64,000 nt of DNA from positions 23,714 to 87,713 of the forward strand of contig NZ_BRVM01000004.1 of the NCBI RefSeq assembly GCF_026011715.1, read 5' to 3'. Origin of the DNA: Cytobacillus sp. NCCP-133. GTDB taxonomy: Bacteria > Bacillota > Bacilli > Bacillales > Cytobacillaceae. Below are positions 12,027 through 14,575 of the stretch, in pieces. The notes below the pieces were generated by a model. It was not told where the DNA came from and did no database searches. It saw only the letters and a program-made list of their open reading frames with translations. A program made the position numbers and the translations under genes. Each line of letters begins with the position of its first letter. Positions within the stretch are counted from its first letter, which is position 1.

Positions 12027-12575
12027 TTACTCTTCTTCGGTTCCAACTAAGAAATCAGGATTTAGATCCTCGAATTCTTCATCTTCTACGTCAAGGCCCC
12101 AAACGTCGTCGTCATCACAGTCGCATTTATCTGGATAAACGGCTATACAAACCTTTGTTTCACCGATTACCTCAACCATGAACTCCCTTTCAACCGAGAC
12201 AATAATTTTGTTTCCGTTTGGGGAAATGACCGCTTCACAGCAATTTGGCTGCTGCAGTACGCGGGCAATGACATCATGGTCATCCAAACAGTCCGGATCA
12301 CGGTATTTTAACTTAATGACATCTTTATACTCAACCCGTTCGGTTACTACTTCAGTTTTTGTATTATTGTTGAAAGAGTACCAAACGTTAATGTCATAAC
12401 GGCCGCAGATTTCTACTGTTTTTCCAACCTTTTTCGCCTCGTACGTATGGTTTATGATCCAGCAGCCAAGAATGCTTGACGGATGGTGTGATGGGCAGAT
12501 CGTATGATTGGACTGTGTAAATTTACGTCCTTTCGCAACGACTGCTTTCGTAATAATCTCTCTGTAATCTCCCAT
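12027..12575 (-). CDS. cotE: Outer spore coat morphogenetic protein CotE
   Basis: A 182-residue protein that organises assembly of the outer coat on the mother-cell side of the forespore. The N-terminus [18 protein letters not shown], the central [15 protein letters not shown] stretch and [18 protein letters not shown] are near-identical to known CotE. The C-terminus is very acidic ([19 protein letters not shown]), as in the family. The frame extends upstream to 12605, but that extension contains the ribosome binding site (GAGGAGGG), so the ATG at 12575 is used. It is divergent from the small-gene trio at 12925. Confidence 0.95.
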
Positions 12576-12866
12576 TGCGAGCGAACCCTCCTCATTCATT
12601 TTCAATTCATCCTATGCGGGATATTAGACTAGTGTGCGATAATTTTTGATGAATGTTAGGCAAAAGTATTGGCATGATTTATAGTATGCCGGGGGCGGGC
12701 GAATGTTCCGGTTTATGCATTTTCATGGAAAGCCTTAACTGGCTCTAAAGCTTGGATTCCCTCATTTCCTCTTATAAATGAGGCAAATGCCCACACAAAA
12801 GATTGCCATTCTCAAGTCCTTTAGGTATATATTTAAAAATTGCACGTTTGTCCTCTTACATTTGCG
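12576..12866. other. Divergent region upstream of cotE
   Basis: It must contain the cotE promoters (sigma-E and sigma-K types in B. subtilis); I could not define their boxes. No other structure or gene was seen apart from the plus-strand promoter listed next. Confidence 0.4.
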
Positions 12867-12897
12867 GATACAGCTTGGCTCATTTATCCATATAATG
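12867..12897 (+). promoter_or_regulatory. Candidate promoter of the three-gene cassette
   Basis: GATACA (12867-12872) and CATATAATG (12889-12897) are separated by 16 bases. The second box fits a sigma-K-like CATANNNT(A) -10 with one mismatch and also contains a perfect TATAAT for sigma-A, whose -35 would be poor. It is about 10 bases upstream of a strong ribosome binding site. The choice of sigma factor is unresolved. Confidence 0.5.
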
Positions 12898-12924
12898 AAA
12901 TGAACGAGAAGGAGGTGAACAGGA

Positions 12925-13299
12925 ATGGCAGAGAAAGAGAACTCCAATTATAATGTTTCTATCAATGGCAAAGAACTTACAGGAGAAGAAGCAAAAGAAT
13001 ATGCAGAAAAAATGATAGCCAAGCTCTCAGACTCCTTAGGCGGTTTGTACTCCAAAGGCCTGGGAAAATTCCAGTCAGATGAGTTAAGAGAAAGCCTTAA
13101 GGACTCTCTGAAACATATAAAGAACCTGGAAGGGCTCTATACGAAAAATTCCTCCGGGATCGGCAATATAATACCTTCGCTAAAAGATCTGCTGCCTGTT
13201 GTAGAAACATCCGAGGATTATAAGCAGGTAAAACTTTCTGTGAATGGGAAAACACTTTTAGATATGGATCTCTCAAACTTAACGAAAAAGGATTCTTAG
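12925..13299 (+). CDS. Unrecognised small protein 1 of the cotE-ricA cassette
   Basis: 124 residues, strong ribosome binding site GAAGGAGGTGAAC before the ATG. I do not recognise the family. The protein is charged and mostly helical in the middle, with no signal peptide or membrane segment. It has internal symmetry: VSINGKEL at residues 11-18 and LSVNGKTL at 104-111 flank a core that holds GLYSK (40-44) and GLYTK (70-74), 30 residues apart. The two NGK motifs look like short beta-hairpins closing the two ends. It is the first of three co-directional genes on the plus strand against the general direction, next to cotE, which suggests but does not prove a role in sporulation. Confidence 0.72.
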   Translation: MAEKENSNYNVSINGKELTGEEAKEYAEKMIAKLSDSLGGLYSKGLGKFQSDELRESLKDSLKHIKNLEGLYTKNSSGIGNIIPSLKDLLPVVETSEDYKQVKLSVNGKTLLDMDLSNLTKKDS

Positions 13300-13344
13300 C
13301 TGATAAACAAAACCCAGTTCAATTCAATGGAGGAGGTGATATCC

Positions 13345-13638
13345 ATGCTATCCAGATGTTATGAAGAAAATGAAAACAACAGCATCTTGCCTTTTGGCGA
13401 TAATGTAAATGGAACTGATAGCGGTGACGAAGCTGAAGCCTTCACTTTTGCAGCTCAGGCGAACCTGCCGCAAACAAGCTTTAATGGCCAGCTGCCAATT
13501 TCTGTTGGCGGATTTGCCGTTAACGCCGCGCTAATTAACATTCCTATACTTTCAGCTCAATACAACATTGCTAACGGCGGCGATTCAACATCCATTGCTG
13601 TTAACGGTACTACTCAGCAGCAAAGCAACAAAGCGTAA
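13345..13638 (+). CDS. Unrecognised small protein 2 of the cotE-ricA cassette
   Basis: 97 residues from the ATG at 13345; an in-frame ATG at 13327 precedes the ribosome binding site GGAGGAGGTGAT and is rejected. The composition is rich in Asn, Gly, Ala, Ser and Thr with little Lys or Arg: an acidic N-terminus with one Cys (residue 5), then a moderately apolar, beta-prone core (PISVGGFAVNAALINIPIL), and a polar tail (VNGTTQQQSNKA). Such composition is seen in self-assembling surface or coat proteins. There is no signal peptide. Gene 1 ends 45 bases upstream. Function unknown. Confidence 0.68.
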   Translation: MLSRCYEENENNSILPFGDNVNGTDSGDEAEAFTFAAQANLPQTSFNGQLPISVGGFAVNAALINIPILSAQYNIANGGDSTSIAVNGTTQQQSNKA

Positions 13639-13697
13639 ATAGAATGACTATTTTCTATGCAGAATCATCAATGTCCAGAAAGAAGGGAGGGAGTACC

Positions 13698-14048
13698 ATG
13701 CTGAATAATTACATTCAAAAGCTTGATCTTGACCCAGAGGTCCTAAAGCAGCTGGGTATTCCAGAGGAGCTCATTGCTGCTGCGGCAGAAGCCGGAATAC
13801 CATCGATCAACAATCATGCCGCTGGCGGTACAGGCGGACGGGCTATCAACCTCACATATGTAGATAACTACTCAACATTGCTTCTCGTTTATACTTTTCT
13901 CCTAAACTTTTTGGACAAAGAATCAGACGATATTGGAACAAAAATGCTAAATCAATCTCTTTTATCAACGCTGAATACTGCTCTTGCTGAGCAGCAGGAA
14001 TATCGAAAAGAATTTTTAAAGGCAGTTGAATTATTGCGAAACCAATAA
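13698..14048 (+). CDS. Unrecognised small protein 3 of the cotE-ricA cassette
   Basis: 116 residues from the ATG at 13698, chosen because AAGGGAGGGAG lies just before it; an upstream ATG at 13644 lacks a site. The N-terminal third is acidic and Ala-rich (LGIPEELIAAAAEAGIP), then a Gly-rich turn (AAGGTGGRAINL), an apolar segment (STLLLVYTFLLNFL, about residues 55-70, too short and isolated for a clear membrane anchor) and a C-terminal amphipathic helix (EQQEYRKEFLKAVELL). Not recognised. It is last of the trio and ends at a bidirectional terminator shared with ricA. Confidence 0.68.
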   Translation: MLNNYIQKLDLDPEVLKQLGIPEELIAAAAEAGIPSINNHAAGGTGGRAINLTYVDNYSTLLLVYTFLLNFLDKESDDIGTKMLNQSLLSTLNTALAEQQEYRKEFLKAVELLRNQ

Positions 14049-14104
14049 GCGGCCTCCCCCCACAACCCAGGCCCATTGATTTTTCCTCCCTTTATATAGA
14101 ACGT

Positions 14105-14138
14105 AAAAAACACCCTGAACCTTTGTTCAGGGTGTTTC
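14105..14138. terminator. Bidirectional terminator between the cassette and ricA
   Basis: AAACACCCTGAA (14108-14119) pairs perfectly with TTCAGGGTGTTT (14126-14137). A-runs on the left and T-runs on the right let it serve the plus-strand trio and the minus-strand miaB-ricA unit. Confidence 0.85.
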
Positions 14139-14149
14139 TATGCCTTTGA

Positions 14150-14575
14150 TCAGTGGGAACAGCTGCTGTTTTTAATCTTTGAGCCTGTTTCCCCGCTTAG
14201 CAGGTTGCCGCCAGTAGATGTTATGACTTCGTCTGTGACAGTATTCGAAATTGCATTTGCGACAATTTGAAGCAGCTCATTTACATCGATTTGAGACTGT
14301 TTAAATTCCTGTACAACTGGAATTTCATCCAGCTGCTGTTCCAATGAAGCAATTTTATCTTCCGTTTTCTTCAAAGCTTCCGCTTTACCGTAATGCTGAA
14401 GATTTACTGCCTGTTTTTGCAATCCTTTAATCGCTGTAATGGTTGCACTTACTTTTTCGTTTCCGTTAATCTGCGCTTCTGCTCGTTTGAAGAAGTCTAC
14501 TTCTTCTGTTTCGGCAATCATGCGCGCCAATTCTTTCGCACGCTCTACAATATCGTCTTTTGTATACTTAGCCAT
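14150..14575 (-). CDS. ricA: RicA (YmcA), regulator of RNA maturation and development
   Basis: A 141-residue YlbF/YmcA-family helical protein, nearly colinear with B. subtilis YmcA (EEVDFFKRAEAQIN, LQKQAVNL, STGGNLLSGETGSK). In B. subtilis RicA, RicF and RicT form a complex that carries Fe-S clusters, acts with RNase Y in mRNA maturation, and influences biofilm formation, competence and sporulation. The C-terminal CSH tail (Cys139) fits the cluster-ligand region. It starts two bases after the miaB stop, so the two are co-transcribed. RNase Y is encoded about 8 kb away. Confidence 0.94.
   Translation of the reverse strand: MAKYTKDDIVERAKELARMIAETEEVDFFKRAEAQINGNEKVSATITAIKGLQKQAVNLQHYGKAEALKKTEDKIASLEQQLDEIPVVQEFKQSQIDVNELLQIVANAISNTVTDEVITSTGGNLLSGETGSKIKNSSCSH

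Follow-up and report, generated by a model that had tools for sequence, protein, structure and literature searches.

What are the three small genes that lie between cotE and ricA in Cytobacillus sp. NCCP-133, and do their products belong to the spore? The outermost layer of the spore governs adhesion, hydrophobicity and the contact of the spore with hosts and surfaces. To our knowledge, the parts of this layer are little known beyond B. subtilis and the B. cereus group. We analysed the genes, here named p1, p2 and p3, in a window of 64,000 nucleotides (the whole stretch of DNA under study, taken from a genome of 4.3 Mb) and compared them with related genomes. Our conclusion is that they probably form a structural module of the spore crust or exosporium, made from three undescribed protein families. 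If this is right, three families without a profile in the searched libraries gain a likely regulon and a likely scaffold.

The features of the locus are collected in Table 1. The reading frames and the flanking families confirm the preliminary description of three small plus-strand genes placed between cotE and ricA against the local direction. The minus-strand PF06133 gene adjoins miaB, and for that reason we take it to be ricA. The intergenic gaps are 45 bases between p1 and p2 and 59 bases between p2 and p3. Shine-Dalgarno-like sequences stand upstream of p1 (AAGGAGGTG), p2 (GGAGGAGGTGAT) and p3 (AAGGGAGGGAG), in keeping with the three strong ribosome binding sites first described, and the cotE-ricA interval of the window holds no further gene-sized plus-strand reading frame. 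Comparisons with other copies in the genus gave dN/dS values of 0.09-0.30 for p1 (9 of 9 comparisons), 0.02-0.20 for p2 (5 of 9, dS being not computable in the other four) and 0.04-0.10 for p3 (6 of 8, dS being not computable in the other two). These low values indicate purifying selection, and therefore real coding genes rather than chance reading frames.

Table 1. Features of the cotE-ricA interval and its flanks, in window coordinates.
Feature	Position	Strand	Description
cotE	12027-12605	-	PF10628, E 1.8e-88; divergent from the cassette
Conserved upstream element	12846-12873	+	GTTTG..CT..T......GCGGATACAG; ends in the -35-like ACAG; seen by eye in most Cytobacillus/Niallia p1 upstream regions
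Sigma-K-type promoter motif	12870-12897	+	ACAG-N15-CATATAATG; ACAG at 12870-12873, spacer of 15 nt, CATATAATG at 12889-12897
p1	12925-13299	+	124 aa; NGK-type motif near each end, with a variable helical stretch between; no known family
p2	13345-13638	+	97 aa; rich in Asn, Ala and Gly; GGDxxxxAVN-like motif in the C-terminal part; no known family
p3	13698-14048	+	116 aa; best-conserved member; conserved core and C-terminal helix; no known family
Hairpin, 13 pairs	14108-14137		-21.3 kcal/mol, z -6.24; 0 of 200 shuffles as good; possible bidirectional terminator
ricA/ymcA	14150-14575	-	YlbF/YmcA family PF06133, E 6.2e-23; convergent with the cassette

The three proteins had been called unrecognised, and no library that we searched offers a credible match. 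Against Pfam, NCBIfam and PHROGs, p1-p3 gave chance-level matches only, and PDB sequence searches with the single proteins and with profiles returned nothing below E 0.09. Pfam scans of 36, 35 and 16 members (sets A5, A4 and A3, respectively) revealed no family common to more than four members, judged for A5 on the best 25 of 49 families listed. Isolated matches to RRF (E 1.3e-4) and DUF1389 (E 5.8e-4), each in 1 of 36 members, were set aside as single cases. Coat_X (PF07552) matches neither p1-p3 nor the members of the three sets, and the own genome contains no match to it. CotZ/CotY (PF10612) does not match p1-p3, which are not Cys-rich and contain zero, one and zero cysteines, respectively. 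Pfam gave p1-p3 no match to the profile of the endospore appendage subunit Ena (DUF3992), nor is this profile one of the families listed for A5, A4 and A3 (for A5, the best 25 of 49). Homologues with an assigned non-sporulation role, which would speak against a place on the spore, were likewise not found in the libraries searched. A literature search found no paper on these genes among the titles and the starts of abstracts listed, and none in the searched library that joins cotE, ymcA and the exosporium. The word undescribed is used here in the sense set by this literature search and the Pfam, NCBIfam, PHROGs and PDB searches.

p1 carries an NGK-type motif close to each end, which matches the internal symmetry first ascribed to it. 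In its AlphaFold model (mean pLDDT 56.4) these motifs are placed, with low confidence, in short strands near both ends, with helices between. p2 is rich in Asn, Ala, Ser and Gly, as its earlier description as Asn/Gly/Ala-rich had it; it keeps its position in the cassette and often retains a GGDAxxxAVN-like end. p3 had been described as helical with a central apolar segment, and its model, although of low confidence (mean pLDDT 61.6), agrees. Helices are predicted at residues 13-18, 23-31, 37-40, 53-72 and 79-115, of which the fourth spans the apolar segment and the fifth forms a long C-terminal helix. The core motif of p3 is GGxGGxAIxLTYVDNYSTLLLVYTFLL. It is the most conserved of the three proteins: the copy in the window shares 48-58% identity with those of other genera and 37-42% with those of Brevibacillus. 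Both p1 (about 20-35%) and p2 (10-33%) are poorly conserved between genera. Foldseek searches of the PDB with the low-confidence models of p1 and p3 gave nothing below E 0.7.

The genes occur together. Of 151 related genomes, 35 have p3, 32 have p1 and 24 have p2. Every genome with p2 (24 of 24) also carries the other two, and every genome with p1 (32 of 32) carries p3; the set proposed in the preliminary description is thus conserved. The cassette is dispensable, as p3 is absent from 9 of 36 genomes of the same genus. In all nine, cotE adjoins ricA across 211-1008 bases with no p1-p3 match between; the three genes thus behave as a cassette, and the view of a self-contained unit holds. Short unmatched reading frames are present in the two widest of these empty gaps. 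Related species pairs with and without the cassette offer a natural comparison. The pairwise distances of the three members correlate with one another at r 0.95-0.97 (29-31 loci). The same distances correlate with those of cotE at r 0.93-0.94 (25 loci) and with those of ricA at r 0.75-0.82 (26 loci); the decayed loci L119 and L134 were left out, and all these figures partly reflect common descent. Further afield, 8 of 397 genomes of the order gave a match to the p3 profile, six with a proper p3 and two with Asp-Ala-repeat proteins. A draw over the phylum gave 1 match in 398 genomes, that of the own genome, which suggests a narrow family, although absence from this sample is not absence from the phylum. 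Two of the related genomes carry a decayed cassette: G009 (L096), with p1 and p3 interrupted and no p2 found, and G031 (L095), with a split p3.

We then looked at where the cassette resides. The scan used exact peptide patterns only and named 36 loci, many from the same genomes as the other set, and neighbours were scanned in 33; the loci are related rather than independent, and the majority are from Cytobacillus. The closest named relatives of the own genome are mostly listed as Cytobacillus, some under other names such as 'Pseudomonas sp. ISL-84'. The cassette lies between cotE and ricA in 26 of the 33, including the two decayed loci. Only one flank was seen in three (L102, at a contig end, and L121 and L122, with ricA present and cotE not found) and neither flank in four (L129, L130, L132 and L133). 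Pfam identifies the neighbours in L129, L130 and L133 as CotO (PF14153, E 2.3e-26 to 2e-27) and CotZ (PF10612, E 2.3e-32 to 1e-39), and the arrangement in L132 looks alike by eye. The cassette thus has a second home beside the CotO and CotZ genes, in Mesobacillus foraminis and Heyndrickxia. Two of the four genomes of this type were examined at the first home, and in both (Mesobacillus foraminis, G071, and Heyndrickxia, G131) the cotE-ricA gap lacks p1-p3. The own genome has CotO and CotZ genes side by side (L162), with no cassette there. In B. subtilis the cotO-cotZ neighbourhood is the place of cotVWXYZ, and the cassettes of Mesobacillus foraminis and Heyndrickxia occupy the equivalent position.

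Some loci depart from the simple triad. Bacillus chungangensis (L128:142-7807) has five tandem p1-p2 units, of which two are accompanied by an intact p3, one by a p3 with an altered end, one by a remnant and one by no p3 that we could find. The p2-p3 pair is doubled in L093/L131. Such amplification fits a structural part. In three of the 36 named loci (L128, L136 and L137), CotE, CotO and CotZ were not recognised within about 6 kb, which counts against a spore-surface role. The Mesobacillus foraminis locus includes a second, separate p2-type gene (L130:4159-4572) beside a fabI-like gene that lies upstream of the cassette; the stretch before this p2-type gene closely resembles that of p1, as if the promoter were of the same type. 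In Brevibacillus (L136 and L137), p3 lies among Gly-rich reading frames near APH-type kinase genes. Candidate p1-like genes there (L137:5077-5406 and L136:3971-4348) end in an 'NG' motif as p1 does, but profile comparison does not support their homology to p1 (probability 0.6), and we do not claim a full triad for Brevibacillus.

The region before p1 carries a conserved motif. Sigma-K promoters have the consensus AC..-N15/16-CATAnnnTA. The preliminary description had reported a promoter-like pair; the conserved motif stands but is of the sigma-K type, and a sigma-70 scan yielded no convincing pair (four found against 3.6 expected, the level of chance). Of 46 distinct regions upstream of p1, 41 contain the loose pattern AC[AG][GCA]-N13-17-nATAnnnT[AG] at a distance of 52-58 nt from the start, where base shuffles give an expectation of 2.3; the other five lack it. 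The spacer between ACAG, or a sequence close to it, and nATAnnnT[AG] measures 15 to 17 nt. The same loose pattern precedes 1 of 39 p2 genes and 4 of 44 p3 genes. Because the pattern was composed after inspection of these very p1 upstream regions, which are mutually related, the strength of the motif lies in its constant position across genera. The strict form CATAnnnTA occurs before 5 of 46 p1 genes (0.5 expected), 4 of 39 p2 genes and 7 of 44 p3 genes, and so does not set p1 apart; an earlier scan with the strict form found it before 7 of 45 p1 genes. The window site, CATATAATG, deviates from CATAnnnTA at its final base. As a mark of the sigma-K regulon, then, the motif before the first gene is found in loose form. 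The conserved element that overlaps its -35-like end may be bound by a sporulation regulator. It did not define a regulon: the own genome has one zero-mismatch site, that of the window, and three sites with three mismatches, against six for the reversed control.

At the other end of the cassette, a terminator shared with ricA had been claimed. The hairpin itself is strong. Its T-run lies on the ricA (minus) side, which makes a terminator shared by p3 and ricA plausible, and a simple terminator scan does not include the hairpin in its list.

The preliminary description had taken the three proteins for a set of partners, perhaps of a spore-surface structure. The CotO/CotZ neighbourhood and the sigma-K-type motif in 41 of 46 upstream regions support this reading, from which the following scheme is inferred. 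Sigma-K would transcribe p1-p2-p3 late in sporulation, in the mother cell. The products would be positioned on the spore via the CotE-CotO-CotY/CotZ scaffold and would assemble with one another into an element of the outermost layer (crust or exosporium), in analogy to the fibres of CotV and CotW. They may thereby fill the place held by CotV, CotW and CotX in B. subtilis. A division of labour can be sketched tentatively, and we would not press it: p2, with its Asn/Gly/Ala-rich sequence, could be the main filament- or sheet-forming subunit and supply the bulk, p3 could be an anchoring or oligomerising helical part that serves as a foot, and p1 could be the partner linking p2 and p3.

We compared this scheme with known outer-layer proteins. 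In B. subtilis, according to PMC4950064, CotV and CotW are clustered with cotXYZ, and CotV together with CotW makes fibres. The products of p1-p3 resemble those of B. subtilis cotV, cotW and cotX in being small, probably late mother-cell proteins that probably co-assemble. They differ from them in having no match to Coat_X (PF07552, the CotX/CotV family) and in their place in Cytobacillus and Niallia, which is between cotE and ricA or beside ricA. Among the 151 genomes, Coat_X is present in 42 and p3 in 35, and no genome has both (Fisher p 2e-6, a value that overstates the exclusion because the genomes are related). Without the genus of the window, which leaves eight p3 genomes, the value is p 0.049, and by genus it is p 0.25, with overlap in one of six. 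The exclusion fits replacement without proving it, and that the cassette replaces CotVWX is a possibility that we favour somewhat less than its contrary. Whether p1-p3 substitute for crust proteins in Cytobacillus, Niallia and Heyndrickxia is a question that can now be tested, and in strains that are not pathogenic.

The nap and basal exosporium proteins of the B. cereus group (BclA, BxpB/ExsF and ExsY/CotY) provide a second comparison. The SigK sites of Bt exosporium genes, as presented in PMC4750369, share the form of the p1 upstream motif, and this promoter form is a likeness between the two systems. PMC8546674 reports that the placement of CotY and ExsY in B. cereus requires CotE; by analogy, dependence of p1-p3 on a CotE/CotO scaffold is plausible. 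Unlike these exosporium proteins, p1-p3 contain no collagen-like Gly-X-Y repeats on reading, are not Cys-rich and have no Pfam match.

Instead of being structural parts of the outer layer, p1-p3 could act in germination or coat permeability, in the manner of GerP, or as morphogenetic helpers. A small operon whose short products have no known domains, preceded by a sigma-K-type motif and adjoining morphogenetic genes, would suit such a role. We nevertheless consider it unlikely, since no germination or coat family of Pfam was found for p1-p3 or, among the families listed, for members of A5, A4 and A3, and since the tandem amplification and the variable, Asn/Gly-rich p2 suit a structural surface protein better. 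It is more improbable still that a mobile or phage-derived cassette settled beside cotE by chance. Its presence or absence at a fixed site is compatible with such an origin, as is the weak likeness (E 0.11) that p2 and p3 show to virion structural proteins in PHROGs; this likeness is not above chance, however, and a search of 72,556 plasmid records gave no match to p3. Nor does the cotE-ricA interval of the window offer any accompanying gene-sized plus-strand frame. The distances of p1-p3 follow those of cotE, which fits mainly vertical inheritance, and the second home of the cassette is again a coat locus. A vegetative function tied to ricA (the Y-complex and RNA maturation) we regard as the least probable of all: the cassette adjoins ricA in 28 of 33 loci, but the two lie on opposite strands and are separated by a hairpin, the cassette is found away from ricA, at cotO/cotZ, in Mesobacillus foraminis and Heyndrickxia, and its distances correlate less well with ricA than with cotE.

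p3 also has a probable distant relationship. The matches to the two Asp-Ala-repeat proteins of the order were weak, at E 5.9e-4 and 9.6e-4 per genome; about 0.4 such matches are expected by chance in 397 genomes, so that on their own they are thin evidence. In both, the match is to the C-terminal end of the protein. When the profile was enlarged with these two, seven more genomes were found, at E 8.8e-5 to 1.5e-23, and in all seven the domain is preceded by an acidic repeat tract rich in Ala, with a gene for about 111-126 residues next in line. A profile made from p3 only (A4) finds four of the nine at E 7e-7 to 1e-4 among 424 reading-frame ends, with no other match. Profile-profile comparison of p3 with the Asp-Ala C-termini aligned 72 C-terminal columns with a probability of 92 and E 5.6e-7; two unrelated comparisons reached E 0.05 and 0.22. 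Homology of p3 to the C-terminal domain of the Asp-Ala-repeat proteins is therefore likely, though not certain, from these alignments. This relationship points to p3 as a docking or assembly domain, one that may be common to repeat-rich surface proteins.

The Asp-Ala-repeat proteins (L144/L145 and L178-L186) differ from the triad in that a long acidic repeat tract stands in place of separate p1 and p2 proteins, with the protein of about 111-126 residues encoded next. A wider proposal, which we find doubtful, sees p1-p2-p3 as an undescribed layer or fibre on the outside of the spore, one that has replaced CotVWX in several Bacillaceae genera. Under this proposal p3 would be a general docking domain of the spore surface, standing alone in the triad and, in other families of the order, serving long Asp-Ala brush proteins as their C-terminal foot. 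A sigma-K-type motif was seen upstream of one of four Asp-Ala genes examined (L179), and the other three are without it. Matches of the Asp-Ala-repeat proteins to MSCRAMM profiles were rejected as an effect of low-complexity composition, far under the cut-offs. The partners of the Asp-Ala proteins, of which seven of nine were scanned, have no Pfam match above the cut-off. Five of the nine Asp-Ala-repeat loci are interrupted by a contig end. In other families of the order (L178-L186, from G295, G170, G402, G359, G457, G441, G164, G340 and G423), the arrangement is that of a two-gene unit: a protein with Asp-Ala (or Glu/Ser-Ala) repeats and a C-terminal domain like p3, followed by the partner protein, which starts with an NVSRCxIP-like sequence.
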